This document shows positions 1,879-48,965 of a stretch of DNA of 64,000 nucleotides, in pieces; positions within the stretch are counted from its first letter, which is position 1, and every line of letters begins with the position of its first letter. The stretch comes from Coptis chinensis (lineage: Eukaryota; Streptophyta; Magnoliopsida; Ranunculales; Ranunculaceae): the NCBI GenBank assembly GCA_015680905.1, contig CM027381.1, forward strand, positions 85,957,501-86,021,500, given 5' to 3'. The notes under the pieces were generated by a model. It searched no databases. It was not told where the DNA came from and was given only the letters and a program-made list of their open reading frames with translations. Both the position numbers and the translations under genes were made by a program.

Positions 1879-2307
1879 TCAAGCAAAAATTGGTTTTCAT
1901 GATTATTTTTACCCGAAATTTGTCCTTGTGAGTGATTATAAAAAAAACTCTGTCCTCTAGAGTTGTTTTGCATCGAAATTGGTCCATGGGACCAATTTCT
2001 TGTATTGAAAATCAGTCTCTTCTGTTTTGCTTTGGGTCAATTTGAGATACCCCCTATTTGAGAAGTTATTTTTGAGATACCCTCCCGTTTTGAAAATCGA
2101 GAGAGATACCCCCTAACTAACGTCTCTCGTCAGTTAACTAATATTTACTGACCAAAACACCCCTCTAAAAAATATTTGAGATACGCCCCTACCATACAAA
2201 ATTATTTGAGATACCCCCCCTGTGTATGAACAATCATTGTTCATACCTATTTGGGGTATGAACAATCAATGTTCATACCTAAATATAATGTAAGATCAGT
2301 ACTAAGA

Positions 2308-2401
2308 ACATCTATTGGAGTATGAACAATGATTTGGGGTATGAACAATCATAACAATGATTGTTCATACCCCAAATCATTGTTCATACTCCAATAGATG
2401 T
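2308..2401. repeat. Perfect hairpin, 45-bp arms and 4-nt loop
   Basis: Positions 2308-2352 are the exact reverse complement of 2357-2401, separated by the four bases AACA. Each arm contains two GTATGAACAAT-type words. The hairpin lies inside the left arm of the MULE-like element, and the words recur in diverged form in its right arm. A transcript from either strand would fold into a long perfect stem of the kind processed to small RNAs. Whether it is transcribed cannot be told from sequence. Confidence 0.9.
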
Positions 2402-2424
2402 ACCTCAACATGAGTTATGAACAC

Positions 2425-2925
2425 TCATTGTTCACACTGTTCATATATCAACATGAGCAGAAGGTTAACATAATAACGAATCATTGATCGTGTCCAAGTA
2501 ACCCTAGAACGATTACCACCTAATGTTTGCAATATACTTGGTACTGATTCAGTTGCAAACATAACCTCAACAGGGACAAGTCTGTCACAAACATTCTTCT
2601 CTATTTCCCTCACTCTTATTTCATAAGGAGAAATGTCCATTACCTCGTCTATGCTCCTCCACGCCATATCCTCTCCTGAATGTGATGAATCCTCTGAACC
2701 TTTAACCAAATATCTATCTACACTAAGTGTATGTGGAGATTGTAGATCTCCTGATGCTTCAGCATTACCTGTTCTTGAGAAATTAACATGGAAAAATTTC
2801 ATGGTTACCTAATTGGTCGCATGTTCCATCCGCAAGCGCATTTCCATATATCTTGCACAAATCATTATAATATGGCAATAATTTTGTCCTATAAGATCGT
2901 TTCTTGGTGTGTACCTGCATTACCA
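2425..2925 (-). pseudogene. Fragment resembling a plant Myb/SANT-like protein
   Basis: On the minus strand, 2925-2786 encodes a stretch including KLLPYYNDLCKIYGNALADG. This resembles the segment after the SANT helices in plant Myb/SANT-like (Myb_DNA-bind_3, L10-interacting) proteins, where a PYYDxLCxIFG pattern is usual. It ends in a stop, and a second frame from 2802 to 2425 continues for 125 codons, as expected if a frameshift split one gene. The second frame runs into the inverted arm of the surrounding MULE-like element, so its end is element sequence. This is probably a captured host or transposon-accessory gene. The similarity is short and the assignment tentative. Confidence 0.4.
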
Positions 2926-3097
2926 TACATAACCCTATACCGAATCAACAATGTCACAAACATCAAATACCGAATCACCATCCAATTTAAATACGCAAAG
3001 TACCTTTATATAATCATCCTAAACATCATCTTTAACAATCAGCATTTGTCATACTCTGTCCCAGTGAAACCCCTCCTGTGAGAACTGTTATTCATAC

Positions 3098-4342
3098 TGA
3101 TAGGGTTTATATACTAAAAGCATTACTTTTGTATTAACTCTAATTCTTTATATTTTGAATGAGAATCATATGGGCAAATATTATGCATATTATATATGTT
3201 ATTAATTATATGCATGCGTCTAATATTTTATGTTGTAGATGATATGGTGTGTGGTGACACACAGAAGATCATATCATCAGTACCTTATAAAGTATAATTA
3301 AATGTTCATAACCTAGATAGATTTGGACAAACCATTGGTACGGTTGTAGTATAATCTGGTATTAGTCTATCTTGACTACAAGATTACACTAGTACACTTT
3401 GTGTGTATTGAACATGACCAAATGAGGTTGTTTCTCTTTATACTGACTATATAAGAGAACAAACACCTCTGTTATTATGGATGCTTGTCCTCTTAATCCA
3501 GATATAATAACGGGCACTTACGTGCATTGTACATTGTTTTAAATCATCAATGAGTGAGATTCATTTGTGAATCAACAAACTCGATAGATTGGGTAATGAC
3601 ATTGTATGTAAGGTGTGCTGTTGATTATAGAAGAAATCTGTGACCCGCAAGAAGTCGAGCTGATGATGTCCCATTGAGGAGCTCATAATGATTATCATGT
3701 AAACCCTGCAGGTGGATTTTAATTAGACATGACAATGAGGTTAAGTAGTACTACTCAAGGACATAAGAAGTTGATTAATGTAGTTGTCAGTAACTTGACT
3801 TAATAAACAAGCATTCGATATCTTAAACACGGGGAGATCAACGAGCATATAATATAGAGCCCATAAACGTAATTTGGGATTAGGGAGGTAGTGCAACAAT
3901 GGCCTTTAGTGGAATAAGCCATTTGTTGACAGACTTGGGTTATGTGTTCTGGGCGAACATGGGAAGCCCAAGCCCGTCAGGAGACCTAACCCTAATTTCT
4001 CTTCATAGTCCCTGTTGTAGCCTATATAAAGATCGAAACCCCTCTTTCTCTGGCCGACCCACTCAGTTTTTGCTCAAGAAAAGTTAGTTCATAAATTCGG
4101 TTCTAAACTAAGAGAATGAGAGAGACCAAGAGAGAAAGAAGGGGTTGGAAGATCGTTGCCCACACAATGTCCATTCTAAGGATAGGAATACAACAAAAGA
4201 TCAAGAGGTTGCTGATTCTCAGAGTTATCACAGCTGATCAAAAGGTATGATTTCTAAACAAAATCGTGAACACCCTTTATTCCGCTGCACATGGGTTTTC
4301 ACGGTTTGTAAACCATTCGATGAAACCATAACGGTTTCTACA
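3098..4342. mobile_element. Solo LTR (about 1.25 kb) inside the MULE-like element
   Basis: The sequence starts TGATAGGG and ends TTTCTACA, so it has the TG...CA ends of an LTR. It is flanked by the 5-bp direct repeat CATAC at 3093-3097 and 4343-4347. A TATA-like TATATAAA sits at about 4023-4030, where the promoter of a plus-strand LTR is expected. There is no second copy and no coding sequence. The simplest reading is a solo LTR, left by recombination between two LTRs; a very small non-autonomous element is the alternative. Confidence 0.75.
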
Positions 4343-4825
4343 CATACCTCAATTTGATCATGTCATTTTCCTTACTGATCATACATTATGTTGATATATG
4401 AACAGTGTGAACAATGAGTGTTCATAGCTCATGTTGAGGTATGAACAATCATTCTTCATACTCTAATAGATGTTCTTACTGATCTTACATTATATTGAGG
4501 TATGAACAATCCTCAATTAAGTATGAACAATGATTGAATAATGATTGTTTATATACAGAGGGTATCTCAAATAGTTTTTAGAGGGGTGTTTTGGTCAGTA
4601 AATATTAATTAACTGGGGAGATGTTAGTTAGGGGTATCTCTCGATTTTCAAAACAGGGTATCTCAAAAAAAAAAGACTTCTCAAACAGGGGTATCTTAAA
4701 TTGACCATTTTGCTTTTTATTTTTCAGTTTTCTAGCTTTACTATCCCCAAGAACTTAGGCCAATTAGCTTTACCCCCAAGTTCTTTCATCTAGAGATTTG
4801 CCCCCCCTAAGATCACACCACATCC

Positions 4826-5747: not shown

Positions 5748-5851
5748 AAGGCAGTTAGTTCTTCCACCGAGGCGCCTTAACTTCTAACAACTAATACAAC
5801 ATTCTTAACTACAATAAGTAAGGCAGGTAGTTCCTCCACTGAGGCGCCTTA
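5748..5851. repeat. 72-bp tandem repeat, split by the CACTA insertion
   Basis: Units begin AAGGCA(G/T)...TAGTTC and contain GAGGCGCCTTA. Unit 1 is 5748-5819 (72 bp). Unit 2 is interrupted: 32 bp lie before the CACTA (5820-5851) and 40 bp after it (14121-14160), again 72 bp once one TTA copy is removed. Unit 3 starts at 14161. The exact sum independently confirms the borders of the CACTA insertion. Confidence 0.85.
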
Positions 5852-6235
5852 CACTACACCATATGGACTGATTTGTAACGGATATGCATCCGTCACTAAA
5901 AATATTAGTAACGGTTATCTTGCGTTGACACAAAAGCGTGACAATCTACAGTAACGGATATTAGTCACGTTTATTTTCCGTTACTAAAATTAGTCACGGA
6001 TAATATACGTTACTGAAATTAATTTCAGTGACATATAAAAACCGTTACAATTCATTTCCAACGTTTATTAATTTCGCCCAACGTTTGTTTGCAACTGATA
6101 AAGTGTTGGTATTTTCCGTTTCTGACATTTACTAACCGTTACTAATTTTCCATTACTAACGGTTATATATCCGTTACTAATTATTTACATTCCTAACGAT
6201 TTTCTATCCGTTACTAATTATTTCTCATTTATTAA
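5852..6235. repeat. 5' subterminal repeat region of the CACTA
   Basis: Short words related to TAACGGAT, CCGTTACTAA and AACGGTTA occur many times in both orientations here. A smaller set is found at the other end (about 13990-14100). Such subterminal arrays are where CACTA transposases bind in characterised families. The specific binding word here is inferred, not known. Confidence 0.7.
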
Positions 6236-6449
6236 AAAAAAATGGTTTTTCTGGCCCTTTTATGTGAGGTCACCTGCACTCTTTTCAGTCTACAATGTAT
6301 CAATTAAATTCTTTCATTCATCAATAACTCAATCTAACAATTAAATTCTTTCTATTCATCCACAACGAAAAGTAATGAAGAACAACATAGATGTTCTAAA
6401 CACCCCGCCCCGCCAACCAAGTAAAATAGCAAAGTTTACACAAAAGGAC

Positions 6450-6689
6450 ATTTTGCGGCGAAGTTAGTTCCCTATTTGCTGATATTATTGCACCTGGATT
6501 TGAAAATGGCGGCACACTTCAAAGGTATACTTCTCCATTACTATATCCAGCAACGACTTTACTTCCAAAGGGGCATGCCCAACATGAAGAAGTAACTTTC
6601 TTTGTTTCATTCGATTATGACAGCATGTTTCCACCCATAAGAAGAATTCCCTTACTTTCTTCAAGTCCCCATAATACAATAAGACCATC
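6450..6689 (-). pseudogene. Captured exon of a WD40 (tomosyn / L(2)gl-like) gene
   Basis: Minus strand, one frame from the acceptor at 6690 downward. It reads DGLIVLWGLEESKGILLMGG, then after a stop KKVTSSCWACPFGSKVVAGY and SNGEVYL. These are WD40 blades as in the plant transducin family related to tomosyn and lethal giant larvae, proteins that act with SNAREs in exocytosis. Two in-frame stops break it: TAA at 6615-6617 and TGA at 6519-6521, the second in place of the blade Trp. The 5' border is a plausible AG acceptor. Only about 80 codons of a protein usually near 1000 residues are present, so this is a fragment and not a functional gene. Confidence 0.7.
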
Positions 6690-6824
6690 TCAGAAAATTA
6701 TAAGTACCCTACATAGAAACAAGAGTCACAAAATAATATAGGAGATCATAGATTTGCCAAAGCAAGGATTGAAAAACGAAACTCTTCAATCTTTATCATT
6801 TACTGTTACATTATTACCTGACAT

Positions 6825-7234
6825 GGGTGTTATTGTCGCCATGCTTGGAGCTCTCCTCCGTATCTTTGTCCCCACGATCTAACTCGGCTTGAGGCTTTGA
6901 GACGTTATCATCAATAGTGGATAAGGATAAGGAAGTCGCACAGCTTACTGCACAATTATCTGCAAGTAAACAAGATGGCATCAGAAAAAAAAAATGTAAC
7001 ATGTGCTCCTACCTTCAGGAGTTTGTAGAACCTTAATTGTTGTTCATGCTTACCTAATTGCGTCATAGGACTACTCTGACCAGGTGAAGATGTCGGAATC
7101 ATGAAATTCTGATTGACATAGGTGTGGGAGTGAATTGGGGAGGGAACAGAACCAGTTCCAATAGAAAGATTGCGACGATGGTGCTTATTACCATCAAAAA
7201 GGTGCAGGCCCATCAGTAAAGGGTGTTCATACAT
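6825..7234 (-). pseudogene. Exon-like pieces of unidentified captured gene(s)
   Basis: Minus-strand open segments with splice-like borders lie here. One (about 6960-6825) runs from a CAG acceptor to a GTAATA donor and encodes a Ser/Asp-rich piece with LSLSTIDDNVSKPQAELDRG. Another (about 7234-7055) encodes NKHHRRNLSIGTGSV and PTSSPGQSSPMTQL and ends at a GTAAGC donor. I do not recognise the parent gene. The first piece might belong with the WD40 exon downstream on the same strand, but this is only positional. They are listed because border signals and amino-acid composition are exon-like. Confidence 0.4.
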
Positions 7235-8030
7235 CTACACCATTGGAAATAGTTTTACGGGGAGTAAAAGAATCTCCAATTCCTAAAGCAAATGGTACGC
7301 TAATCCCTGCAACAGCAGTGGCAAAGGCTTTCTTTCCAATTTGACGTACGGACTTTGGGTCTCATTCTACGCCGACCAGGAAGCGAAACAAGAGAAGACT
7401 GATGTTGGCTAAAGTATCCAACACTGTGAGGCTCTAGCTTGGCAGGAAAAACATGATGAAAATGAGATTTATCACTGATGGTCCTAGCAATACACCTCCC
7501 TGGCATTACGTAAAGAAAGCATCTAACATTAAAGAAAACAAAGTATTTTATTATGTAAATTCCATCAAATAATACAATTTTAACAGCAAATAGAGATATA
7601 TGTCAATCATACATGTATTATGCTTTTAGCTTTTAGCTTTCAAGAAGCATCAATGCACTATTATTCAAGTTTGACTTGGCTAATGACTAGGAAAACTCGC
7701 CTAATTTAATTGCATATTTGTCAACCCAGTAATTTTTTATCTTCATTCTTAAAAATTGTCAGAATAGAAATCAAGGTAATGTAATTAAAATCAACAGAAA
7801 ATACTTACAATAATCTCAGCGATTACACGAGGCTGTCTCATAGGCTTTAGAAGAAGCGCAAGAGTGGGAGACGAAAAGTACAAGACATATTTGCAAAATG
7901 ATAAGAGGGAGTGAAAAATGAAGAGGATTATCACCGTGGAATACTCCACTAGATCAGATGTCGCCCGCTTCATTGGTAATGGGCATGGCTGTCCTGTAAC
8001 ATTCGCCGCCATTGCACCACCAAGATTCAC
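7235..8030 (-). pseudogene. Captured 5' part of a CHX-type cation/H+ antiporter gene
   Basis: Two minus-strand exons are visible. The first (about 8030-7809) starts near AMAANVTGQPCPLPMKRATS and ends in [14 protein letters not shown] at a GTAAGT donor. The second (7499-7235) begins in phase with GGVLLGPS after an AG acceptor and continues with SLTVLDTLANISLL, FLVGVE and RQIGKKAFATAVAGISVPFA. This is the N-terminal transmembrane part of plant CHX (CPA2) monovalent cation/H+ antiporters, which are endomembrane or plasma-membrane proteins. The normal membrane segment between the start and [13 protein letters not shown] is replaced by unrelated sequence. In-frame stops occur at 7434-7436 (TAG) and 7362-7364 (TGA). 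The rest of the roughly 800-residue protein is absent. A dead fragment, assigned with good confidence. Confidence 0.8.
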
Positions 8031-8176
8031 AAGTATTAAATTCTTATTCTTTCAATTCAATACCTGTCCAAAAGAAACAACCATCAAATATAATCGAAAA
8101 TTTCCTGCCATAAGACCATAACTCTAATAAACTCGATCAAACTAGTAGTATCATTCTGGTTTGTAAATATATTTAC

Positions 8177-8395
8177 CTTGAGTATGTCTGTCATTTCCAC
8201 TCCAGCCACCTGCCTTTGTTTCTTCAGCCTTTTTAACCCTTGGATCAGAAGGCTCCATCTGGGGAGTCTCCTGAGATTCCAATGAATTCCAGTTACCGGT
8301 TCTAGGGGACTCACTTGATGATTTTATTGTGTTCCAACCAACAGATTTAGACGACTCCGACTCACGGGACTCATTTGGTTGACCCCGCCGAGATT
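8177..8395 (-). pseudogene. Captured exon rich in isolated Trp motifs
   Basis: A minus-strand segment of 219 bp (73 codons) is bordered by a TATAG acceptor and an AAG/GTAAAT donor and is open in one frame. It contains VGWNTIKSSSESPRTGNWNS and KAGGWSGND in a Ser/Glu/Pro-rich, hydrophilic context. Trp residues next to Gly or Asn in disordered sequence resemble the GW/WG platforms that bind Argonaute in plant silencing factors such as the Pol V largest subunit or SPT5-like. That comparison rests on composition only. The parent gene is not identified. Confidence 0.4.
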
Positions 8396-9812
8396 CTATA
8401 TGGTATTAGCAATGTAACCAAACAATCAAGAACATGCATAATGAAGCATTGACAAAGCACGTTTTTACAAGTCAGTAAACAGTGCCCCTTCATATCCATT
8501 ACTTTCCCCATGTATGGAGTGCACAATCTTAATCTCAAAGTTCTCTCGTACTAGTTTGAAAAATACATATCAGAATAGACAACAAGCAAGTTTACAAGTA
8601 CACAAGTTACAAGTATACATGCTGAGCAATGCTAACAGACATTGTATCAAAAAAATAGAAAAGAAAAGCTTAATGTTATCTTCCTCATCCTCGTCACTTC
8701 AATTTTCCATATCATCATTAAACGACAACCTCAAATTCCCGTAAGATTGGCCATTCAGTGCTCTCTTTCTAACTTGCATTGAATATAGAGTAACAAATAG
8801 ATATGATCAAAATAGATTGGATACATAAAGTATTTCACTCAAACAACAAATAGATGAAGAAGGCTAACCATTTACAAGAAAAGGAGTCTTAGAACATAAA
8901 TAACTTTAGTACCAGCACCTTCAAATAGAATGAAAGAGTAGCTATCAAACAGCAGAGGACTAACCCTGTTCCAGAAGTCTACAAGTGCAAATCATCAGGC
9001 CTTATATTCATCAAAGAGTGATACTTTAAAATTCTAAGCTAGAGGCAGACTATTACTACCACGTACCAAAAGAAGGGATCGTCTTCCAGCTCTATCGGCT
9101 TTTAGATTCTCAGTTCTCATTACACAAATCAGATCACATTATACCAGCAGATAATAAATCTGGCATCAATCAAGTATTACAGAACATATCAGGTGATTCT
9201 AGGTTTCAAGTCTACTAAAACTCAGACCATGCCAATAAGCAAGCTTGCCTCAATTTAAGAGCTGATAGATATATTCAGAAATGCTTTACCTAGAATATAG
9301 CAAGTAAAATATATGCGATTGTGCGGTAAACACGCAAAACACAACAGAGAAAAGGCTTATAAGACTTGAAAAGGCCGAGATTGCCAAGGTAATACATCAA
9401 GACATCCAGGGCCAAACCTAGTGACAGCTTATGATTTTTTTTTTCCCAAGATTTTTACAGTTATTTATTGCCCCATTTCCTCCCTCTCTAGGTTAGGGGA
9501 CAGGGGAAGTAAAAGTGTATCATTAGAACATTATTCAAATAGCAAGTCCATTGGTTATAAGCTTCATGACATTCTTAGCTTTGTTTATGAAGTTTTGACA
9601 ACACTTCCCTCTTTTCCCTCCCCCATAAAAGAAAAAAGAAAAATACCAACACAAACAACAATGGTTGAGTGATCTTTTCTGAAAGCTAGACATGAAATAG
9701 GTGATTAAGAGGGTCCATGTTCCACACTTCCTACCTAAATGCTTAGCTTCAGTGGTTTTCATAACCACATACCAAATCAAGCATGAACCTAGAAATAATA
9801 TAAAAGCTTTAC
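8396..9812. other. CACTA interior, mostly intron-like, one acidic exon-like piece
   Basis: Most of this stretch looks like AT-rich intron sequence from captured genes. On the minus strand near 8750-8660 a short piece reads SYGNLRLSFNDDMEN, then a stop, then SDEDEEDN, resembling an acidic C-terminal exon of some gene. No family could be named. Confidence 0.35.
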
Positions 9813-11669
9813 CTGGTTATAGTACGTTGGCATCGACATGAGAAGAATGAAAGTATTTCGCTCCATCGCATCATTGCCACCGACAATAAGCTTATTTTCA
9901 TCAAAGCTAAGTTGAGGGTCCTCTAGTGGTGAGCTGTGTGCCTATGCATCAGTAGCCAAATTAAAACCTGGTCATTGAAAGGAAATAGTGAAGCTAATCC
10001 ATGGTACAAGTTTATTTTGTAAATTATATAAGCTATCCATGAGACCATGACATAATAGTTTTTCGTTAGTGGCTATGAAGCACGGACACTCCTCTAAGGG
10101 TAATGTATCCGTGTCGGACACGTATCCGACACCGACACTCCCCGATACGCCTCCGACACATGACGTCGGATACTCGATTTGGAGTGTCGGATTTATTAAT
10201 TAATTTATAGAATTTCCGACACTCCATGGACACATTGGGGACACGGGGGACACTTCTACATTTTACTCTAAATTTTAAAAAAGTGATTAAAATACTTAAA
10301 AGAAAACATGACTTGGTAGGAGTTTTATTTCACTCTTGAAATAAGGAGGCACAATGCACAACTGCACACTTTTGATGATTGCCAAGTTCTTTTTAAGTTT
10401 TTATATATATTTGTTATGAATCTTCTGTAATTGTTATTTCTTTCGTTGGCATTAGCTTGCATTTTTGGACATGTATGTTGTTTAATCTTTTAGAGTTAGA
10501 CATGTTCAAAACTAGTTTTCATATTTTGATTTAAACTTAGTGGAGAGGGTTAAATTTCATGAAAATATATATATAAATTTTCTTTAACGTGTCCATGACG
10601 TATCCATGTCCTACGTATCCGTGTCCACGTAATTTTTGAATGATGTCGTGTCCACGTATCCGTGTCATGTCATATCCGTGTCGCGTGTCGGTGTCCGTGC
10701 TTCATAGGTTAGTGGCCCATCTGCTTAGTGGCCTTATCTGCTTTGAACATTAAATCTTATGATTTCTGTTTCTTATTTAAATGCCGGCCTATTATTATTT
10801 GGAAGGGATATTCAGATGGACTGGTGATGACCCATGAGCTGTGAAATTTTCTTGATTGGAATAGATATTCTGAGGATTTTTGTTAGATTACTATGAAGCC
10901 AATGAAACTTGATATGCTAAAAATATCCATATTCTAGCACAAGAAACTTACTGAAAAAACATACTGCCAACAAAATATCCATAGGGATTGGTGCTGACTC
11001 GTGAGGTTTTGTTGATTGAAATATATATTGTGAGGATTTCTATTAGATTATTAGGAAGCTAAACTTGATATGTTATAAATATCCATATGCAACACAAGAG
11101 ACTTGGTGAAAAAACACGCTGATGACAAACATAATTAAGTAATAACTAAGAGGACCAGAATTCCCTCGAGATGGAATTTACCTTACTAAGTCATATAGCA
11201 AACCACACGGTTCTAAGAGAGCCAAGGGAGTAAAATACTGATGGCCACCCAAACTTATGTATCAAAAAAGGGGATAATGCTAGGCCAGTTACTGAACCAA
11301 GGTACATCCCAGTATCCCACTATATACAAGAGCTAACGACTGACTTCTTTCTGCTACAGGAACCCACTTTGATAGAATATTATTCATTGCAGGCATGGCA
11401 ACACCCTGAAGGTATTAACTGAACATAGCGCCAAACAGAACGAGACTATAAGATATGAAATTTATGCTAAAGCAAAAAATAAAATGTGAGGAATATTAAG
11501 TTATAAAACTGGCCTCACCAATCCCCATGAATGCACGCACAACAAGCAAAAAAGGCAAAACGAGTTTAGCAGCAATAGGCATGAGAGCTGTGGCAATAGA
11601 CCACCAGATTACGGCAAATCCCAATACAAACTTCCCACCAACTGTGTCTGCCCATATACCTCCAGCAAC
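9813..11669 (-). pseudogene. Captured middle part of a PHT4-type plastid anion/phosphate transporter gene
   Basis: Three minus-strand exons keep their introns. Exon a (11669-about 11519) reads VAGGIWADTVGGKFVLGFAV and ends MGIGE. Exon b (11405-11182) reads GVAMPAMNNILSKWVP, then SLALVYSG, and continues as MYLGSVTGLALSPFLIHKFG. Exon c (9941-9813) reads SSPLEDPQLSFDENK, then TFILLMSMPTYYNQ. These match the major-facilitator PHT4/ANTR family of plant plastid phosphate or ascorbate carriers. Exon b has an apparent 8-bp insertion (ATACTGGG) shifting the frame between VYSG and MYLG, and a TGA near its end. In exon c the segment before TFILL is missing. A hAT-like MITE lies in the intron between b and c. 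N- and C-terminal parts are absent, so it cannot make a transporter. Confidence 0.8.
10073..10707. mobile_element. hAT-like MITE inside the CACTA
   Basis: The ends CTATGAAGCACGGACAC and GTGTCCGTGCTTCATAG are perfect 17-bp inverted repeats. The 8-bp direct repeat GTTAGTGG flanks the element at 10065-10072 and 10708-10715, which is the hAT duplication length. The 635-bp interior repeats TCCGTGTCC and CCGACAC words and encodes nothing. A 9-bp reading of the duplication (GTTAGTGGC) is possible but makes the ends asymmetrical. Confidence 0.85.
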
Positions 11670-11897
11670 CTTTAATCAAATTAGTATTAGCCACATGTTC
11701 ATTGCAAGATAAGTTTGGAGTTTGTAATGTTCATTACAACAATGTCTTCTTTTCCACAAGTTTTTCACAAAAAAATTGAAACCTTTTGGTTTCTTTCATT
11801 TATGGTTCAATTAGCTAGTGAAGACTGAGAAAGACCTAACAAAACATAAGCCAGGCATCAAAGCTTAACACCATAGATCTGAAATTCCCAACCCATT

Positions 11898-11924
11898 AAA
11901 AAAAAAAAAAAAAAAAAAAAAAAA
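11898..11924. repeat. Poly-A run (27 bp)
   Basis: An uninterrupted run of 27 A, between the first PHT4 exon and the likely leader exon on the minus strand. It could be a decayed retroposon tail or simple slippage. No target duplication was found. Confidence 0.8.
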
Positions 11925-12239
11925 CTGGATATGTTGGAGTTCAATAACATGAAGAGATGAACAAAGAGAAGAAAATCAAAACTTACCCATTCCACTATCT
12001 TATATTCGGATTCGAGTTCGAGTGAGAAGAATGGTTATGGCTTGTTGAAAACGAGAAGATGAAGTGGAGAGGACAGGATCGAGATGGAAAGAATATGTAC
12101 TAAAGATGGATGGGGACAAGTGGCTGAGATGAAACTGTAGGAATTATCAGGAAGGGGGTGAATTAGGTTTGCAAAGGAAGCAGGAGTCTAAACGCGTTTG
12201 TGTATCCAAGTAGTTATTTTTAGTGGAGTTGTGGCCCAT

Positions 12240-12410
12240 GGGACCGAAAACTAAATAGGTCATATAAGACGATGACATAATGTGAGGGAGTATGTAACTG
12301 TTTTGGGAGAATAGTCACATATAATCGTCAATACATGAACCCTTTCCTAGAAAAAGGATTTGTGACGGTTCTAGATGCAACAGTCACAAAGCCCATTTCT
12401 TTACTAGTGG
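12240..12410. mobile_element. Partial terminus of a second CACTA-type element
   Basis: The segment ends GGGCCCATTT-like sequence then CTTTACTAGTG. Read on the minus strand it begins CACTAGTAAAGAAATGGGCT and then TTTGTGACTG with repeated GTCACAAA/GTGACGG words. Many plant CACTA elements start this way. The opposite terminus was not found in the window, so this is probably a truncated relic within the larger CACTA. Confidence 0.5.
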
Positions 12411-13640
12411 TCCTACATCATACCACCTATTTCTTAAGCAATAAAATCAAATAAATATAAAAAAAAAATAAGCCACCATATAATATCCAATAATGATTTC
12501 ACAATAATGCAACAAATATCCTTGCCTAAACAAATATCCACTAAGCAACAATCTTACTACCTGGAAAGAAACTAAGGACTTATATTCAAGAGAATGGATA
12601 AGCAACAAAACAATGGAAAAAAAAAAACTTTAGCCTAGTACCAAAAGACACTACCAAACTGAAGGCCACAAGAAGACCTAGCTTGTTTAATGTGCATATA
12701 ACACATCAGATAAATATCTCAACCCCATAAATGCATAAGCCTGTGCACAATAATATCAAGTAATATACATAGCTATTTGATCCAAATCCGAACCTTGACA
12801 TCAAAGACCAAAAGTTTTATATTGGAAAGTCCACAGAAAAATAAAATAAGATGACAATTTATCTGCCTTAATAATATACAAAGTGTTATGTGATGCAAGA
12901 CTTAGCATGAGTAATGAAACCACATTCCAAACAAAAAAAGCCGTTCACACCAACACAAAAACTATACTTCATTAACTGAAGCTTGAACTTAAAGTTGAAG
13001 CACAAGTAATTACTAGTTGCTAACGATGATTTTATTTTTTGATGTGAATCTAATGCTCTAGTCCAAGACAGTCCTACATTAAGCTACAAGAATATTTTTT
13101 CGCTTATATTATCTATCAAACAATGCCAATATTATTTAGAAAAACCTCACTGATTATAAAACCTGACAATAAACTGAACATGAGAACACCATATATGAAG
13201 CTATAAAGATGCAATATTTTACTTAAAAATTTAAAGTTTAACCAAACCCATAAGCTAAAATCTTAATGTCAAAAACACTACCTTAGGGTTGTTACCTTGA
13301 GTAGATCAAACACTTAGTAAGAAGCAAGAACAGCAACGACAACAAGCACCTTCAAAATTTTAGAATATTGAACCCCAAATCATGAATTCAAAGCATTAGA
13401 AATTCAAAGCAACAACCAATAAGAGAAATTGGTACCTTATGAACAGAGAACTGGAAAAGCTACAAGCTTGCTTGATATCTGAATTAGAACCTTAAGAAAC
13501 AGAGATAAACTTGTTACTTAGAAACTTAGATATCAATCTTTAACTAAATTTAATCAAAATGTCATTTTTTTTTTCATTTTAAAAACAATCGTTTACTGGA
13601 TTCTTTAAAAACAAGCGACCAAAAATTAAAATGCTCTCAG
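12411..13640. other. CACTA interior without recognisable genes
   Basis: AT-rich DNA with short A-runs and no open frame of note on either strand. From its position between the 5'-leader-like region (13640-13870) and the captured exons it may be intron sequence of a captured transcription unit. Nothing specific could be identified. Confidence 0.4.
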
Positions 13641-13870
13641 ATAAGGAAAACCCTAAAACCGTGACCAACAATTACTTACTTCGATTGGAAGAGATCATTT
13701 GCTCAATAGATCGAACAATTAACCCTAAAATGAAAATATCGAAACCCTAGCCATACAAAATCAAAACCCTAAATAATTTGAACAAAGAGGGAAGAAGTGG
13801 AGAGGGCGACTCACCCGCTAGTGAGGAATAACTCGTCAAGCTCATTGTTTTCTCCTATTTTTGGATGAGC
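13640..13870 (-). promoter_or_regulatory. Captured promoter / 5' leader-like segment with telo-boxes
   Basis: Four AACCCTA words (near 13650, 13721, 13742 and 13765) are clustered here. In plants such telo-box motifs lie near transcription starts of growth and translation genes, and the pyrimidine-rich minus-strand sequence beside them resembles a 5' leader. All captured exons downstream share this orientation, so this could be the promoter from which a chimeric minus-strand transcript starts. The role is inferred. Confidence 0.45.
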
Positions 13871-14160
13871 TGAGAAGTGAAAAACTCCCGCTTGAGTTCA
13901 TTTTTTTTTTTCGTATTTCTTTGTTTTTTTCTTAGTTTCTAACATATCTCTAAACGTCACTAAATATCTGCATAAATGTTAGAAAATAATTCAACTAATT
14001 TAGCAACGGTTGAGAGTATTGCTAACGGATTATAAGTGTGATTAACTTCGTAACGGATGTGTAACTGTTACTAATGATAAATTCTAACTGTGGCCAATTC
14101 ACCCAAATGGTGTAGTGTTAACTTCCCACTAACCACACAACAAACCATACGCATAATAAA

Positions 14161-25864: not shown

Positions 25865-26302
25865 TCAATCGACGTTCTGCATAACATCCTCAGTAGTAAA
25901 CTTAGTCCCCTTGTCCTTGTCAGCAGCACGACCCTTGGCCTTACGTTCAAGAAGAGACTTGCGATCCTTATCAAGCCTCAACTTAGTGACAACAACTTTG
26001 GATGGATTAATACCAACATTGACAGTTGACCCATTGACTTTCTCACGAGTGATTCTCTCAATATGAATGACCCACTTACGACGGTAAACTTGAACTACTT
26101 TACCTTCACGTCCTTTGTATGTACCACGAACGACTTGGACTTCATCATCTTTGCGGACTGGGACAGAACGAACGTTGTATTTGCTACGGAGATCTGTTGA
26201 TAGTGGGGCAGACATTAACACGCGGCGAACGCTGGATGGTGCCGTGAAATGTGCCTTGCGGTTCTTGCGACGGGAACTCGTCACTCGAGGACTGAACTTC
26301 AT
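25865..26302 (-). CDS. RPL26: 60S ribosomal protein L26 (uL24)
   Basis: A single uninterrupted frame of 145 codons on the minus strand, the normal length for eukaryotic L26. It begins [20 protein letters not shown], the basic N-terminus of the family. The KOW motif follows at about residues 50-78 ([20 protein letters not shown]). It ends with a Lys-rich tail and [10 protein letters not shown]. The protein binds 25S/5.8S rRNA near the polypeptide exit tunnel in the cytosolic large subunit. No intron is present in the coding part. Site II and telo-box motifs lie upstream, typical of plant ribosomal protein genes. No disabling change is visible, so the gene is probably functional. Confidence 0.96.
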
Positions 26303-26500
26303 TGTTCTGGTGACTCTGCCGCTGCTCTGCTCTGCTTTCCTTCAGGGGAGAAAATGAAGAAACGAAATAAGTATGTTTTTATATTGGTTTCATCTCTAGG
26401 GTTAGGGGATGTTTGTTTGGGCTTTTGTTATTTGGGCTTACTCGTAGAGATTCAGAGTGTGATGGATGTGCTGTTCTTATGGGTATTTTGACTAAACCCT
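26303..26500 (-). promoter_or_regulatory. RPL26 promoter with site II and telo-box motifs
   Basis: TGGGCT occurs at 26418-26423 and 26433-26438; read on either strand this is the site II element (TGGGCY) bound by TCP factors. A telo-box half TAGGGTT lies at 26397-26403 and AAACCCTAG near 26493. Paired site II and telo-box motifs just upstream are the standard arrangement in plant ribosomal protein genes. Confidence 0.65.
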
Positions 26501-33051: not shown

Positions 33052-36000
33052 TTAGAAAATCAGGTAACTTCTTTGGTACATCATACCCCTAGCATCCTCC
33101 TCCACTATTACATTTAACTCATACGCTAGAGGAGGCATGCTATATAAGGTGCTTTGACTCTCACAAGGATGACAACTACCCATAGCAGTATTGGCCTTGG
33201 CCAGCCAGTCTGCCACTCTATTTCTCTCCCTAAACACATGGGAGACGACAACGGACTCAAACTTCCTCATGGTTCTCGATCCACAAAGAACCAGTTCTAG
33301 ACAATACCAAGGACATATCTCCCTCCCGTTGATCACTTGAACTGCCCTCAAGGAATCGGATTCAACCAATATGTTCTTACAGTTCATGTATTGGGCTGCT
33401 AAAAGCCCAGCTTCAACTCATTTTAGCTCTTGGATAATTACCGATCTTAGATTTGAGTGGCCCATGTAGGTAATAACTAGTACCTCTTCCTGATCCCTTA
33501 GAACTCCACCATATCCCGTTCCTTCAGCATTTACTGCTCCATCAGTATTAACCTTTATCATTCCAAGAAGTGGTTTCACCCATTGTCCTATAATTGGAGT
33601 ACTCTGTTTCAGCGGTAATACAATTCCGATACTGGCAATGATCTTCCTAGTTTTCGGTGTATCTTCTGCTTCTTTTATCACTCTCTGGAGGTAGCTTCGC
33701 ATCCTTTCGATAATATCACTAGAGAGTGTGGCAGCTGCATGAGATTTCTGTTTGAACTTCTTGCTATTCCTCTCATTCCAGAGCCCATATGTTGTGGCGC
33801 AAACAACATCTTTGATTATCTCACTTTTCACCGAACTTTGCCGACTTAACCGAAAAATACTCTGCCATTCTAAAGTAGAATCACTAATAGTGGCTTGTAA
33901 CCCCATACGCTAATTTACTGTTGCCCACACTGTGTGTGTACTCACAGTTGAAAAAGAGATGTTTCAAATTTTCGGGATGGGCCTCACAGAAGCAACAACT
34001 CAAAGTGGTGATAATCCTCCATTGTATCAACCTGTCTTGAGTGGCTAGGCACCCAGCAAACAGCTGCCATGTTATGAACGAGTGTTTTGGGACTGTGAAC
34101 TTACCCCAAACCAGCTTGTGAAATTTGACTTTCTCTCTGACCTTCCTTATAGCCTTATATGCAGATTTAGAGGTAAACTTACCACTGCTGGAAGGAGTCC
34201 ACACAACTAGATCGTTCCCTATGTTTGGGTTGATGATCTTCTGCAGTATGTTCTCTTTCAGCTCTCCTTCTAGTAACTGTGCTACCACCTCATTCCATCT
34301 ACCATTGGTAATCATTTCACTCACTTTAGCGTCATCTGGAAAATCCTGCAGTAAGTTTCGAGCTTGATTATCATGGATCAACAGCTTTGATGACATCCAG
34401 GGATCATGCCACAAGCTAGTCCCCTCACCATCTCCTATCAAACATCGTATGAAGTTTCGAGCTGTCTTTCGGTGTTTGAGAATGCATCTCCAGGTCCAAG
34501 AACAGTCATGCGGTATCCTCATGGTCCAAAAATGCTTGTTCCTTATTTGATATTCCCAGGTCCACTTTGTCCATAAAGATTCCTCTTTACTCACCACTTT
34601 GAAGACTAGACCACAATATGCCGCTTTGTTCCACACTCGCGGATCCATAATGCTTAACCCCCCCTTCAGATTTGTGTAATCTCAGTTTTGCATGATTGGC
34701 TTTATGCATCTTTTATTGCATAGACACTCTAGCCCAGAGAAACCGGTTGCACAGCTTGGCCACCTTATCAAGAATTCTCATAGGCAATATAAAGGTCTTA
34801 GCCCAGTAGATGTGGAAAGAAGAAAGAATAGGGATCAGATAAAATTTTGTAGTCTTCCCAAGATAAGATAAAGCTCTCACCACTTTAAAGACTAGACCAC
34901 AATATGCCGCTTTGTTCCACACTCGCGGATCCATAATGCTTAACCCCCCCTTCAGATTTGTGTAATCTCAGTTTGCATGACTGGCTTAATGCATATTTTT
35001 TTGCATAGACACTCTAGCCCAGAGAAACCGGTTGCACAGCTTGGCCACCTTATCAAGAATTCTCATAGGCAATATAAAGGTCTTAGCCCAGTAGATGTGG
35101 AAAGAAGAAAGAATAGACTGTATAAGTTGTAGTCTTCCCACATAAGATAAAGCTCTCGCCACTTTAAAGACTAGACCACAATATGCCGCTTTGTTCCACA
35201 CTCGCGGATCCATAATGCTTAACCCCCCATTCAGATTTGTGTAATCTCAGTTTTGCATGACTGGCTTTATGCATCTTTTTTTGCATAGACACTCTAGCCC
35301 AGAGGAACTGGTTGCACAACTTGGCCACCTTATCAAGAATTCTCATAGGCAATATAAAGGTCTTAGCCCAGTAGATGTGGAAAGAAGAAAGAATAGACTA
35401 TATAAGCTGTAGTCTTTCCGCATAAGATAAAGCTCTATTCTTCCAGTTTGAGATTCTAACCGATATTCTTTCAATCAAAGGCAGACAGTCCTTGGAACTT
35501 ATTCTCGCAGAGATAAAAGGTAATCCGAGGTACTTTACAGGAAGACTAGTCCTCTGTCATGCTACCAGTGAGCATATAAGTTTTCATGGAGTTAATCTTG
35601 AGACCTGTAAGCTTGGAGAAGCAATCAATGGACTCCTTTACTGCGGTAATAGACGCTGTTTCCCCTTTACAGAAAAGAAGAACATCATCTGCAAAACTCA
35701 AGTGAGTGATGGCAAGTCTTCGACACCTTGAATATGGAATAATACTTCGTGAGTTCAAACCCTACTTTAAGAGGCCCCCCAACAGTTCCATGATCAACAC
35801 AAACATATATGGAGATATTGGGTCTCCTTGCCTGAGCCCTCTCTTGCGTTCAAAATACCCCTGCGGGCATCCGTTCACCAATATAGAATAAGAAGGAGAG
35901 GTGAAGCACATGACAAGCCATTTGATAAACTTCTCGGGAAATTCAAATATTTTAAGGATTAGTATCAATGTTTCCCGGTGACCGCGGTGTCTGAATGTCC

Positions 36001-40109: not shown

Positions 40110-41872
40110 ATGAGATTAAGGTGCGGTGGGAGAAAAACACCGAGCGTAATTAACCGTCAGCGTCAACAAACAAGTCTATCGAGTATACCAATCACTACAC
40201 CTCTAGCTACTATCCACCCACCACACGACATAATGGTGAAGAAAAGAGACTCTCTCTCTCGACTTTTACAAAGCCTTGGCGATAGCCCTAAATCTTGCAT
40301 CGTTCTAGCGGACCGGTGGGGATTTTGAATCCCCAAACATATTTAATTTGTTACCGTTTTTCATGGTTTAGACCATGAAAAACCTTATCGGCATTATCGT
40401 AGGATTGAACAAGTCCTTACAACATTCCACCATCCTACGGTTGGTGCGGAACAAATTAAACCGAGGGTATTCCCCTTCACTTTAGCCGATAAAGGCGTCT
40501 TGGTTAAGCGCTTAAAGCGCCTAACTCTGTGGACTCGTAGGCTAAACTTGTTCAATTTGTTTATGGAACATTTTACCCACCCCTAAAGGCGGATGAGATG
40601 CTTTCCAAGATTCATTTTTTTTACCGAGAATCCTCATGAATCATTTTTTGAGGCTTGAAATCGTTTCACCGATCTGCTTATAGAGTGTCCACACCATAAC
40701 CTAGCAAAAGACACGTTAGTTCGTGCTTTTTTCAAAGGACTTCTACATCACCATCAAGAAGTCCTTGACATAATGAATGGGGATAGTTTCCTAAGTAAAG
40801 GAGCCTCGGAGGCTTACAAATTTTTAGAAGATCAAACTAAAGCGCCAATAATGGTGGGGGTAGTGATGATATCCCCGCTCGCTAGTTCTTCTCCAACGGT
40901 TAAGGCGCCCGTATATGTTTGAGATGAAACCCGATCGAACTTAAAATTTAATCGAATCTCTAACTAAAAAGGTAGAGGTTATTTCTATTCAACAAAAGCC
41001 TATCCCCGTCATGAATGTCAACTCCAACCCATGTAATTTATGTTTGAGTCCTGAGCACCCTGACTCCTATTATCCTCTCGCCTATGTACAACAACAATTA
41101 GAGCAAGATAATGTTTGCTCCATTAATAGCTATCCTATTCCTAATGCCCCATGGAGACAACATCCCAACTTTAGTTGGCGAAACAATCAACAAGTTACAC
41201 CTCCAGGGTTTAATAACCAAAATGTTAGGCAAGCAAACAATTATAACCAAGTTCCACCTAGACAAGGACAAGGTCAGGGGAATTATAATAATTATAACAA
41301 CCAAAGCTTAAACCACCGACAAGGTCTAGCACAAGGTCGGGGGTAATTATAATAGTTATAATACCAATAGAGGTATCGTTCCGGTGGACAATAGTAACTA
41401 TCACAACCCACCCATAAATAATCAACGTGAGATAGTTCTAGTCGCACCACCTGTGACTACTACACCTACACAACCGGATCGTATCGACGCCTTTATACAG
41501 GTTACCCAACAACTTTTCCAAACAATGACTCAATCAAACCAACAGATCTTACAATCCATAAATCAGGGCATACAACAGTTAGCCCAAGAGAAAGCCCAAC
41601 CAAAAGGCGTGTTTCCATGACAAGTGATACCAAACCCTAAAATAGTAAACACAGCCTTTGAGGTAAAAGGTAATAATAGTACGGAAACTACAATCGTAGG
41701 TGACCTAAATGCCATCACCACTCTCCGTTCTGGAAGAGTGGTTGATAACAAAGTAACTATGCCTATAGTTACCCCATCCGTACTCCCTACACCGGATATC
41801 GAACTAGATACCAAAATAGAAACTGAAGAGCCTACCACTATAGAGGTACCAGTTAAACAACAAACTAAATAA
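40110..41872 (+). pseudogene. Element 1 gag, broken
   Basis: Starts at ATG 40110 (MRLRCGGRKTPSV, matching the element 2 start at 47128). It is frameshifted repeatedly before 41011. From there an Asn/Gln-rich nucleocapsid-like region is open, including CNLCLSPEHPDSYY, a zinc-knuckle relic whose last Cys is absent. It continues to 41872. The gag of this clade packages element RNA. Element 1 cannot make the full protein. Confidence 0.75.
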
Positions 41873-41950
41873 CAGAAAGCCAAGGTTACACATCAAGTCG
41901 AGCCATACGCTAAACATAGAGCGAAACCACTGTTCCCTCAGAAATTAGCC

Positions 41951-44900
41951 ATGCTAACCAGGGATACAAACTTTGAGGAGATTAGGAACGTTTTCAAAAA
42001 TCTAACGATAAACCTTCCTTTTCTCAAAGATATTAAAAAGCTCCCTAACCACGCTAAGTTTCTTAAGGAGTTGTGCACTATTAGGCGTAAGACCAACATA
42101 CCTAAAGATGCCTTTCTAACTGAACAGTTCCCAACTTTATCCGAAAATAATGGAATTGTTAAGTACAAGGACCCTGGACGTCCTATTGTAAAATGCACCT
42201 TAGGAGAATCCCACACGACGACCGCTTTATTAGACTTGGGGGCGAGTGTTAACTTACTCCCATTTTATTTGTATAAACAAATAGGTCTACAAGAAATGCA
42301 ACCTACAAAAATGACGTTGCAGTTAGCAGACAGGTCTATAAAGTATCCTAAGGGTGTAGTGGAAAACGTGCTTGTTAAGGTTCAGGATTTCCACTATCCT
42401 GCAGATTTTGTTATCCTCGATACATAAGTCGCTAACGACTCTGTACCGATCATCTTAGGGCGCCCCTTCTTGGCAACTGCCAATGCGCTTCTAAATTGCC
42501 GCGATGGTAAGATGTCCTTATCTTTTGGCCATCTTTCTGTTGAGGTAAATGTTTTTAAAATGATGAAACAGTTACCAGAATCGTCTATAGATGGGGAGGT
42601 TAGCATGATTGAGAGCTTAGCTCAAGATTATTTTAACAACACATTTCCCGAAAACCAGATGTATAAATTCCTTTCTTTTGGAACTTCAGATTTTGTAAAT
42701 GACTCCTACTTAGAGGAAGTCAACACCATCCTTGAGTCCACACCAATTGTAGACCCGCCGGTTGCTCCATATCTTGAGTATGAAGACTTGCTACCTAAGC
42801 AAGTATTCATTATGCAAAATGGACCACGATGAAACATCTATCGACATTCCTTCCACCCGATTGCTTAAACCTCTTCCCGGAGTTAAAATATATTCAACTT
42901 GATCCGGATGATAGCCATCCGGTAATTATATCTTTCTCTGTTATCTAAGGATGAAGAGAGACACGTTTAATCGGGGTGATTAGGGAACATCGGTCTGCGA
43001 TTGGTTGGTCCCTAGCCGACATTAAGGGAATTGACCCTAATGTTTGCACTCATCGCATCCATTTGGAGGATAACCACGAAGACTTTCGTGAACCTCGGTC
43101 GTCGAACCCCTGCCATGAAAGAGGTGGTTAGGGAAGAAGTCTTTACGATTTTCGATCGCGGGTATCATATACCTAATCTCGATAGCGAATGGGTAAGCCC
43201 CATTCATGTAGTTCTTAAGAAATCGGGGAGTTACCATGGTGCGTAGCGGAAATGGTGACTATGTTGTCACCACAAGGTCCTATGAAATGGAGAATCTGTA
43301 TTGATTCTGGGGCGTTTAAATGCTATGACACGAAAGGATCACTTTCCTTGACCTTTTATAGATCGGATGCTTTCGAGCGCCTAGGCTGGTCATGCTTTTT
43401 ATTATTTTACGGATGGCTACTCGGGGCTATTTTCAGATTATTATTGATATTGATGACCAAGAAAAGACTACCTTCACATGTCCCTTTGGAGCGTATGCCT
43501 ATAAGCGAATGCCTTTTGGCCTTTGTAATGCTCTGGTACCTTCCGGTGGTGTATGCTTCATATATTTAGTGACATGGTAGAAGCTTTATGGAAGTTTTCA
43601 TGGATGATTTTTCTATCTATGGAGACTCCTTCTTGATTGCTTGTCTAACTTTGTCTAAGGTTTTGACACGGTGTGAAGAAAGAGCCTCGTTTTAAACTGG
43701 GATAAGTGTCATTTCATGGTGAAAAAGGGCATAGTACTAGGTCACATTGTATCTAGTGATGGCATCGAAGTAGATAAGGCCAAACTAGATAAGATAGTGA
43801 CTCTACCTAAACCACGGATTTGTCAGTGATATTAGAGCCTTTCTAGGCCATGCGGTTTTATAGGCATTTTATTAAAGATTTTCGAAAATAGCTAGGCCTT
43901 TAACTAATCTGCTTTTTGAAGGATGCAATCTTTGATTTTAATTTTAAGCGTAAGCGGGCTTTTAAAACTTTAAAAAGCCCTAACCTCTGCACCAATTATC
44001 TGACCTCGATTGGTCTAAACCTTTCGAACTCATATGTGATGCTAGTGATTATGTAGTTGGTCTTTGTCATGGGACAGAAACTAGATAATAAGTCCATTGT
44101 TATTTATTACGCTAGTAAAACCTTAAACGATGCTCAACGGAATTATTCAACTATCGAAAAAGAATTCTTAGCTGTCATTTATGCTTTAGATAAGTTTCAT
44201 CCTTATTTGGTTGGTTATAAAACTTTAGTTTACATGGACCATGCAACCCTTAAGTACCTTCTTGCAAAGAAGGATGCTAAGCAGAGATTAATCCGATGGA
44301 TCCTTCTCCTGCAAGAGTTCACATTAGAAATAAAGGACAAAAGAGGGGTCGAAAATGTAGTTGCTAACCACTTATCTAGACTTACAAACGACGATAATAG
44401 TGATTCTGAGTCCATATCGGACTCTTTTCCTGATGAGCATCTGTATGCTATTTTTTTAGCACCATGGTATGTTGACATTGTAAATTATTTAGCAGCTGAT
44501 GTTATGCCTTATAATTGGTCAAGAAATGAACGTAAGAAGTTCTTGGCCAGAGTTAAGTTATACTACTGGGATGAGCCCTACCTTTTTAAGTATTGTGCGG
44601 ATCATATTATTCGTCGTTGCATTTCCCAGTGGGAATATAATGAAGTTATATCGTTCTGCCATGACAAAGAGTGTGGTGGCCATTTTAGTGGAATGAAAAC
44701 AGTCGCTAAAGTTCTTCAATGTGGATTTTATTGGCCTACCCTTTTTAAGGATGCCCAAGTGCATTGCAAGACGTGTATTCGTTGCCAACAACTTGGGAAT
44801 CCTGGCGTAATATGATGCCATTAAATCCAATCTTGATAGTAGAAATTTTTGACGTTTGGGGCATTGATTTCATGGGTCCCTTCCCTGTTTTCCACGGTTT

Positions 44901-47127: not shown

Positions 47128-48900
47128 ATGAGATTAAGGTCTGGTCCGAGAAAAACATTGAACGTAATTAACCGTCAACAAACAAACATATCGAGTATAC
47201 CAATCACTACACCTCTAACTACTATCCCACCAACCATACCTGACATAATGGCTGAAGAAAGAGAGACTCCTCTCTTCGACTTCTACAAAGCTTTGAGCAA
47301 TGACCCAAAATCTTGCAACTATCTAGCAGACCCAGTGGGGGATTTTCGAATTCCCACAAACATATTTAATTTGTTACCCGTTTTCCATGGTTTAGGCCAT
47401 GAAAAACCTTACCAACACATGCGTAGGATTGAACAAGTCCTTACAACATTCCATCATCCTACGGTTGGTGCGGAACAAATTAAAGCGAGTATATTTCCCT
47501 TCACCTTAGCCCGATAAGGCGATGTCTTAGTTAAGCGCTAAAGCGCCTAATTCTATGGACTTCGTGGGCTAAACTTGTTCATTTGTTTATGGAACATTTT
47601 ACCCCCCTAAAGGCGGATGAGATGCTTTCCAAGATTCATTTTTCCGGCCGGAATCCTCACGAATCATTTTTCGAGGGCTTGGAATCGTTTCACCGATCGC
47701 TTATAGAGTGTCCACACCATAACCTAGTAAAAGACCGTTAGTTCGTGCCTTTTCAAAGGACTTCAACATCACCATAAAAAGTCCTTGACATAATGAATGG
47801 GGTAGTTTCCTAAGTAAAGGAGCCTCGGAGGCTTACAAATTTTAAGAAGAACAAACTAAACTTAATAACAATTGGGGGTAGTGATGATATCCCCGCTCTG
47901 CTAGTTCTTCTTCGGCAGATTAAGGATTTGGTATGTTTGAGATGAAACCCGATCGAGAACTTAAAAATTTAATCGAATCTCTAACTAAAAGGTAGAGGTT
48001 ATTTCTATTCAACAAAAGCCTATCCCCGTCATGAATGTTAACTCCAACCCATGTAATGTCCGTTTGAGTCACGAGCACCACGACTCTATTGTCCTCTCAA
48101 GCCTATGAACAACAACAATTAGAGCAAGATAATGTTTACTCCATTAATAACTATCCTATTCCTAATGCCCCATGGAGACATCATCCGACTTTAGTTGGCG
48201 AAACAATCAACAAGTTTCACCTCCGAGGGTCTAATAACCAAAATGTTAGGCAAAGCAAACAACTATAATCAAGCTCCACCTAGGCAAGGCCGGGGACTAA
48301 GTTGGGGAAATTATAATAATTATAACAACCAGCGCCAACCCGACAAGGTTTAGCACAAGGTCGGGGTAATTATAATAGTTATAATACCAATAGAGGTATC
48401 GTTAGGTTAACAATAGTAACTATCACAATCCACCCATAAATAATCAGCGTGAGATAGTTCGGTCACACCACCACGTGACTACTACACCTACACAACCGGA
48501 CCGTATCGGCGCTTTATCACGAGGTTACCCAACAACTTTTCAATCAATGACTCAATCAAATCAAGCGGATCTTACAATCCATAAATCGGGGCATACAACA
48601 ATTAGCCCAAGAGAAAGCCCAACCAAAAGCGTGTTTCGGGACAAAGCGATACCAAACCCTAAAATAACCAACCACAGCCTTTGAGGGTAAGCGGTAATAC
48701 TAGTGCGGAAGCGACAATAGTAGGCGACCTAAATGCCATCACCACTCTCGCTCGGAAGAGTGGTTGATAACAAAGTAACTATGCCTATAGTTATCCCATG
48801 ATTACTCCTACACGGATATCGAACTAGATACCGAAATAGAAACTGAAGAGCCTACCCTTTGTAGAGGTACCGGTTAAACCACAACCTAAGAAACGAAAGC
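47128..48900 (+). pseudogene. Element 2 gag, broken
   Basis: Opens at ATG 47128 for 129 codons, with the N-terminal gag segment including SKSCNYLADPVGDFRIPTN-type sequence and RRIEQVLTTFHHPTV. It shifts frame at about 47515. The remaining gag can be followed by comparison with element 1, but frameshifts occur every 50-150 bp. Many of these coincide with CTG or CAG in the other copy. Confidence 0.75.
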
Positions 48901-48965
48901 CAAGGTAACACATCAATTCGAGCCATACGCTAAATATAAAGCAAAACCACCATTTCCTCGAAGTT

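Follow-up and report, generated by a model that had tools for sequence, protein, structure and literature searches.

How does a DNA transposon come to carry pieces of several unrelated host genes, and were all of them gathered by the element in which they now lie? This question is raised by a locus of Coptis chinensis, studied here in a window of 64,000 nucleotides (C5:85957501-86021500), in which positions 5852-14117 are a complete non-autonomous CACTA element. We compared this element with the genome (935.6 Mb, 116 contigs searched) and found in it fragments of five host genes; two further full copies, a fourth copy with a different left side and a second CACTA family carrying one of the same fragments were also identified. 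Altogether, these comparisons indicate that it is very probably a non-autonomous Pack-CACTA element that was built stepwise, as a hybrid of two transposons, and then amplified.

The element, its ends and its copies

The ends and arms of the element, which belongs to a family that we call A, are the following.

5849-5851 (left copy) and 14118-14120 (right copy), unstranded: target-site duplication TTA, read directly
5852-5861, plus strand: left terminal inverted repeat CACTACACCA, which 18 of the 20 relatives fetched have without mismatch
5862-6431, unstranded: family-A left arm with GTAACGG subterminal repeats, from a motif scan and the relatives
12696-14107, minus strand: family-A right arm with telo-boxes (13650-13775), 5.8% substitutions from the relative L019
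13845-13812, minus strand: start-like exon in the right arm, opening with ATGAGCTTGACG and ending before GTGAGT, read from the sequence
14108-14117, minus strand: right terminal inverted repeat, the inverse of CACTACACCA, read from the sequence

The exact borders and the TTA duplication proposed by an earlier sequence-only reading of this DNA were confirmed. Indeed, the only exact matches to CACTACACCA in the window are the two element ends (eight matches with at most one mismatch), and TTA stands on both sides. Nine of the ten GTAACGG/CCGTTAC sites of the window lie inside the element, eight in the left arm and one in the right arm, where subterminal repeats are sparse (one GTAACGG and one TAACGG site). 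The element begins directly behind a copy of the GAGGCGCCTTA repeat at 5841. An uncut GAGGCGCCTTA copy at 5769 continues with ACTTC, like the right flank after TTA, and diverges after these five bases; it may be taken as a weak analogue of the empty site. Around the element, the repeat containing GAGGCGCCTT is present in three copies (window 5769, 5841 and 14181).

Mobility is borne out by two further full copies, L009 (98.0% identical) and L011 (97.1%), which have related ends and target duplications of their own (TAT/TAT and TAG/TAG). The pairwise substitution divergences of the three full copies are 1.12, 1.89 and 2.12%. Among family-A elements with both ends read, six of six show a matching 3-bp duplication (TTA, TAT, TAG, GTT, AAT, TAG), the ends of the remaining relatives being outside the 10-kb fetch or not exact.

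Short CACTA inverted repeats, a 3-bp duplication, subterminal repeats in both arms and transposase-coding relatives place the element in the CACTA superfamily. As a Pack-CACTA element, it codes for no transposase; it includes host coding DNA with donors elsewhere in the genome and is present in more than one copy. Pack-MULEs are recognised by long MULE inverted repeats and a 9-bp duplication, while Helitrons have neither terminal inverted repeats nor a target duplication; both assignments were rejected, the first because of the CACTA ends and 3-bp duplication, the second because terminal inverted repeats and a target duplication are present. Rfam and tRNA scans of the window gave no match.

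With the left 601 bp as query, at least 58 matches were obtained (best 40 of 435 first candidates scored), and 20 relative loci were fetched, 10 kb each. L009 and L011 are among these 20, and three more (L010, L013 and L019) have the left 1366 bp in common with the window element; the right arm is also common to L019 (86-88%) and its last 195 bp to L013 (70%). The remaining 15 of the 20 loci share at most 904 bp, followed by different sequence as far as read. An open reading frame (ORF) of L012 contains DUF4216 (1.9e-12), which we take to be a CACTA transposase domain. This ORF is matched by 7 of the 20 fetched loci, and two more match only its neighbour ORF, which has no Pfam name; all nine matches are on the minus strand, the strand of the captured genes. 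The same comparison, made with the 20 loci, gave no match of the window element to these L012 ORFs. Transposase_24 in L010 reached an E value of 0.031 only, below cut-off.

Captured pieces and the joint between two transposons

Between the arms, we distinguished the following pieces. Long terminal repeat is abbreviated LTR, and miniature inverted-repeat transposable element MITE.

6432-6752, minus strand: tomosyn/Lgl fragment with at least two in-frame stops, from protein and DNA matches
6750-7217, minus strand: AtC3H46-like CCCH zinc-finger fragment, two exons with introns, parent at C9:83949927-83950394
7216-7233, minus strand: 18-bp LTR scar TGTATGAACACCCTTTAC, joined to the CCCH piece through two shared bases, AC, from comparison with the LTRs of the fourth copy
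7234-8133, minus strand: CHX cation/proton exchanger fragment (exon 1, intron and part of exon 2) with frameshifts and a stop, from PF00999 and a DNA match
8134-8405, minus strand: 272-bp patch within the CHX piece, of which 8176-8401 matches an NRPE1-type gene
8406-8495, minus strand: the CHX piece continued upstream, seen as two short matches of 85 and 91%
8889-9100, unstranded: MITE-like repeat, found at 85-93% at 27 or more other places (best 40 of 76 candidates scored)
9107-11729, minus strand: PHT4-type transporter fragment, three exons with introns, with an 8-bp duplication and an 88-bp exon deletion, from the gene at C7:84313700-84317700
10073-10707, unstranded: MITE in a PHT4 intron, with an 8-bp duplication GTTAGTGG; its site is unoccupied in the C7 gene and in the family-B copy
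11925-12409, minus strand: end of a second CACTA family, B, CACTAGTAAAG, with a related end at C4:77699720

The five minus-strand pieces (tomosyn, CCCH, CHX, NRPE1-type and PHT4) agree with the sequence-only reading of a Pack-type CACTA element holding fragments of several unrelated genes on one strand. Its tomosyn, CHX and PHT4 assignments hold and its W-rich exon matches the NRPE1-type gene, but it had overlooked the CCCH gene at 6750-7217. The candidate parent genes are scattered over C4, C7, C9 and C81 rather than standing together in the element's order, and copies, related ends and target duplications are present, so that neither of the refuting conditions named in that reading applies. 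Taken singly, the tomosyn, CHX, CCCH and W-rich exons matched no Pfam family above chance, and neither did the joined tomosyn string.

The joint between the left and right parts is best read from a fourth copy, C4:72740956-72759094 (18,139 bp, TAG/TAG duplication), which is 96-98% identical to the right part of the window element. There, the CHX piece is interrupted by an LTR element with GTAGA duplications (L037, L042), after which CHX resumes (about 41 bp). Further sequence follows, and then a family-A left arm that ends in TGGTGTAGTG and matches the window arm at 79% over the best 188 bp. No tomosyn or CCCH match was found in the sequence read of this copy, the middle of the LTR element lying outside it. 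Truncation of the fourth copy at 7217 was considered and rejected, as its left end is present beyond the LTR element. In the window, CHX (to 7234) is followed by 18 bp of LTR and then by the CCCH/tomosyn sequence: positions 7233-7216 equal the first 18 bp of the fourth copy's 3′ LTR (18/18) and match 17/18 of the 5′ LTR. A match of 18 bases exactly at the CHX boundary is not a chance event, so the window state derives from an LTR-bearing state. Since this scar is followed by CCCH and tomosyn sequence, and since the fourth copy has a different left arm, we conclude that two transposons were fused in the window element.

L010, L013 and L019 share this left arm with its tomosyn and CCCH pieces. 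For the tomosyn piece, 24 of 303 candidates in the protein search pass E 1e-3, the top one being the Coptis Lgl-like protein P0002 (6.2e-41; 89% over 93 amino acids). The DNA query gave 31 matching rows, all candidates being scored; C4:33546304-33546621 matches the tomosyn gene part only, at 94%, and is a likely candidate for its parent. The C9 locus with the CCCH parent (L039) holds exons of protein P0028 at 85-100%. L013 contains far more of the CCCH gene than the window element (PF23182 at 1.7e-32, and zf-CCCH), and L010 likewise.

Joined into one string, the CHX piece matches PF00999 at 5.9e-13. Its 900-bp stretch, including the intron, is 85% identical to C9:82556120-82557021, which appears to be the CHX parent or a close relative of it. 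The sequence CTACACCATTGG at 7235-7246 was considered as a degenerate inner CACTA end and rejected, as it is CHX coding sequence that is similar in CHX relatives. In the fourth copy, CHX exon 2 is followed by a 490-bp stretch, and the two are adjacent at 12 of 12 further places, so this arrangement is old. The segment concerned (L042:552-1043) accompanies the exon-2 piece in each of the 12 other places in which that piece was matched alone.

The patch within the CHX piece is of another origin: 8176-8401 matches C81:48412-48637 at 93%, inside a WG-rich reading frame of 398 amino acids in the 3′ part of a gene. About 3.9 kb from this match and on the same strand, an ORF of the same locus (L036) hits the largest subunit of RNA polymerase V (Pol V) at 1.1e-34 and that of Pol IV at 1.6e-5. 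We infer that the WG-rich frame and the Pol V-like ORF belong to one NRPE1 gene, and it is because of this neighbouring ORF that we use the NRPE1 name. Pfam gave nothing above chance for the NRPE1 C-terminal string or for the L036 ORF, and a PDB search with the C-terminal string found no match. The interval that separates the Pol V core ORF from the WG-rich part contains a further ORF (L036:2123-3022), which looks like a long interspersed nuclear element (LINE). The W-rich piece does not have the retained intron borders that had been claimed for it: in the parent, this stretch is internal to an open exon, and what look like an acceptor and a donor on either side of the patch are therefore accidental. 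Non-synonymous changes make up 7 of the 13 changed codons of its frame, and this frame, identical in L009, is broken by indels in L011; thus, there is no sign of selection on it.

The PHT4 string matches MFS_1 at 3.4e-23 when its exons are joined, while the three single exons matched it below cut-off. The gene is P0001, and its C7 locus matches the window from 11729 to 9107, introns included. As 9100-9520 is a dispersed repeat, found at six other places at 86-88% and also within an intron of the C7 gene, positions 9107-9507 are repeat-derived and the secure PHT4 part is 9508-11729. Neither the C7 gene nor the family-B copy has the MITE at 10073-10707, which thus inserted after the capture of PHT4. 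We take it to be hAT-like from the length of its duplication; a 9-bp duplication was replaced by the 8-bp version, which gives symmetrical ends.

The same cargo is found in family B. The B element (C4:77699720-77706001, 6282 bp) has the ends CACTAGTACAAAAAAGGTTT and CACTACAAGAAAAAAGGTTT and TTT on each side, and its own end is 78% identical over 130 bp to the inner end of the window element, within which 12196-12399 recurs at eight other places (80-87%). Its PHT4 pseudogene and that of the window element have a common exon-deletion junction, GAAATAC/TTTCATT, and extra upstream sequence in common, so the PHT4 cargo also travels in family B. PHT4 substitution divergence is 6.5% between window and B, 10.0% between window and C7 gene, and 11.3% between B and C7 gene. 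Because the B-type end lies inside the A element, the piece appears to have passed from B to A. In consequence, the idea that this element collected all its pieces itself had to be given up: PHT4 is also in family B, and the arm of another element brought in the left part.

Order of assembly and alternative explanations

Substitution divergence from the donors is 10.0% for PHT4, 7.2% for CHX (8.1% in the intron), 6.6% for NRPE1 and 4.9% for CCCH (4.6 and 3.5% for two L013 pieces). The LTR pair differs by 3.1% (12/383), and the window element differs from the fourth copy by 2.3% (8/341 bp). This order agrees with the nesting of NRPE1 in CHX, of the LTR in CHX and of the joint in the LTR, and the divergences are broadly consistent with stepwise assembly.

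We can propose the following history. The PHT4 fragment, with one and the same exon deletion, is present in family B and, beside a B-type end, in the window element, and would have passed from B to A. CHX lies on the side of a family-A left arm in the fourth copy, and the NRPE1-type patch seen within it in the window element may have entered as filler DNA from break repair, a process that the patch favours for that step. In the fourth copy, an LTR retrotransposon interrupted the CHX piece. The window element has no more than the first 18 bp of this LTR, joined to the left arm of sister elements with tomosyn and CCCH; the joint may have arisen by a deletion between two neighbouring elements in like orientation whose outer ends were then used as those of one element. 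Gap repair with template switching would fit this step as well. Finally, the hybrid with CACTACACCA ends is present at two further places, presumably after cut-and-paste movement with transposase from transposase-coding relatives, as known for the family.

Several points weigh against this history. The CHX and NRPE1 values, like those of the LTR pair and the fourth copy, are too close to rank; moreover, divergences mix coding and intron sites, whose rates differ, and the donor compared may in some cases be a paralogue of the true one. Within PHT4, the stretch 10073-9862 is only 5.2% from the C7 gene. The three full copies diverge unevenly from one another (0 to 5.9% per 500 columns), and exchange between copies may blur the dates. 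The right end of the B element and its TTT/TTT were found through a scan for similar ends, and TTT is weak in AT-rich sequence. The stretches 8496-8888 and 12410-12695 are without assigned origin. Lastly, the deletion requires two neighbouring elements, and such a pair did not turn up, no search aimed at it having been made. Concerning the copies, the uneven divergence is seen in L009, L011 and window 6841-9795, as if sequence had been exchanged between them.

Could all pieces have been gathered in a single burst of break repair, with template switching among genes and the shorter relatives as later derivatives? The patch within CHX does resemble filler DNA, and the CCCH joint has merely 2 bp of shared sequence, but we regard such a burst as highly improbable. 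Tomosyn and CCCH pieces are found in relatives without the remaining pieces, CHX exon 2 with the 490 bp of the fourth copy is present at 12 further places, PHT4 is present in another CACTA family, divergences differ two-fold between pieces and the LTR scar requires an earlier retrotransposon insertion. The fourth copy contradicts a burst unless it is an assembly error. A pile of unrelated transposons and pseudogenes nested into each other, with coincidental CACTA ends, might be suggested by the MITEs and the foreign CACTA end inside the element; it has next to no probability, being refuted by L009 and L011, in which the internal order is unchanged from one end to the other although the flanks and target duplications differ. 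Stepwise assembly as a hybrid of two transposons is thus the reading that we retain.

A separate matter is whether the telo-box right arm acts as a promoter that drives a spliced chimeric RNA or protein, which we consider doubtful. If transcribed, the element would be read leftwards, beginning in the right arm, on the strand that holds the transposase genes of the family. One strand carries the five pieces and the family transposase matches alike, the right arm with its telo-boxes and start-like exon is common to relatives, and the pieces captured by soybean Tgm-Express1 are spliced as cassette exons (PMC1947982). The retained intron borders of the sequence-only reading hold in part: several splice signals are intact, but at the first donor of PHT4 the GT of the gene is replaced by GC. 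Furthermore, three of the five pieces (PHT4, CHX and tomosyn) carry frameshifts, a deletion or stops, and the NRPE1 frame is broken in one copy, so no single protein or reading frame runs through all pieces. As for the common orientation, it is real, but unusual only weakly: five pieces would share one by chance in about 6% of random cases, or 3% relative to the transposase strand, and we therefore do not use the common strand as an argument.

Elsewhere in the window, an inverted-repeat element occupies 2125-4621, with 82-nt arms that are 83% complementary and 2.3 kb apart, and with inner palindromes of the GTATGAACAAT type. At 34590-35436, three 280-bp tandem copies (95%) run into an ORF that we take to be LINE-like. 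Near-CACTA motifs stand twice at nearly equal spacing, at 40193-42361 and 47205-49382; the ORFs there are presumably retroelement coding sequence, and these motifs are thus probably not CACTA ends. A seemingly intact gene at 25865-26341 is presumably that of ribosomal protein L26.

Significance and comparison with known systems

The acquisition of gene pieces by DNA transposons has so far been mostly inferred from end products. Here, a hybrid, its unfused sibling that still contains the retrotransposon from which the scar came, relatives of the left arm and a second carrier are present in one genome, which makes the fusion model for Pack-CACTA elements checkable base by base. A captured piece may also reach a transposon second-hand, which bears on any count of capture events. 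It is a bolder and rather unlikely proposal that CACTA families trade cargo modules and swap arms by fusion more than they capture genes afresh, and that the NRPE1 piece could counter a silencer. The Pol V subunit NRPE1 is part of a pathway that silences transposons; if the proposal were true, its WG-rich piece could serve as a decoy peptide or give rise to small RNAs directed against the element's own silencer. Neither a title on CACTA elements of Coptis nor NRPE1 was found among the literature matches listed.

Unlike Helitrons, the window element has terminal inverted repeats and a target duplication. It resembles maize Helitrons in having gained several gene pieces stepwise (PMC3288121). 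In CACTA elements of Chenopodium, host fragments likewise lie inside the element, together with a transposase domain; those described have fragments of one gene each, whereas the window element stacks several genes (PMC8978399).

The element is thus of a known kind, that of Pack-CACTA and Tgm-Express1, with an unusually readable history. Tgm-Express1 of soybean (Zabala and Vodkin) is a CACTA element in an intron for which chimeric RNAs were shown and which, like the window element, carries parts of exons and introns from five host genes that are unrelated to each other (PMC1947982). For the window element, in contrast, the order of acquisition can be read, thanks to its full copies, to a sibling that is not fused and to a second carrier family. 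Fusion of neighbouring elements that lose their inner ends is a proposed route of DNA gain for Pack-TYPE transposons (PMC8903248; review PMC13317346). In Arabidopsis, rice and maize, Pack-CACTA and Pack-TYPE elements are proposed to have gained new DNA in this way (PMC8903248), and the 2-bp shared joint, together with relatives of both source elements, fits this model. The window element differs from these in the 18-bp LTR remnant at its fusion point and in a piece that it has in common with another CACTA family.

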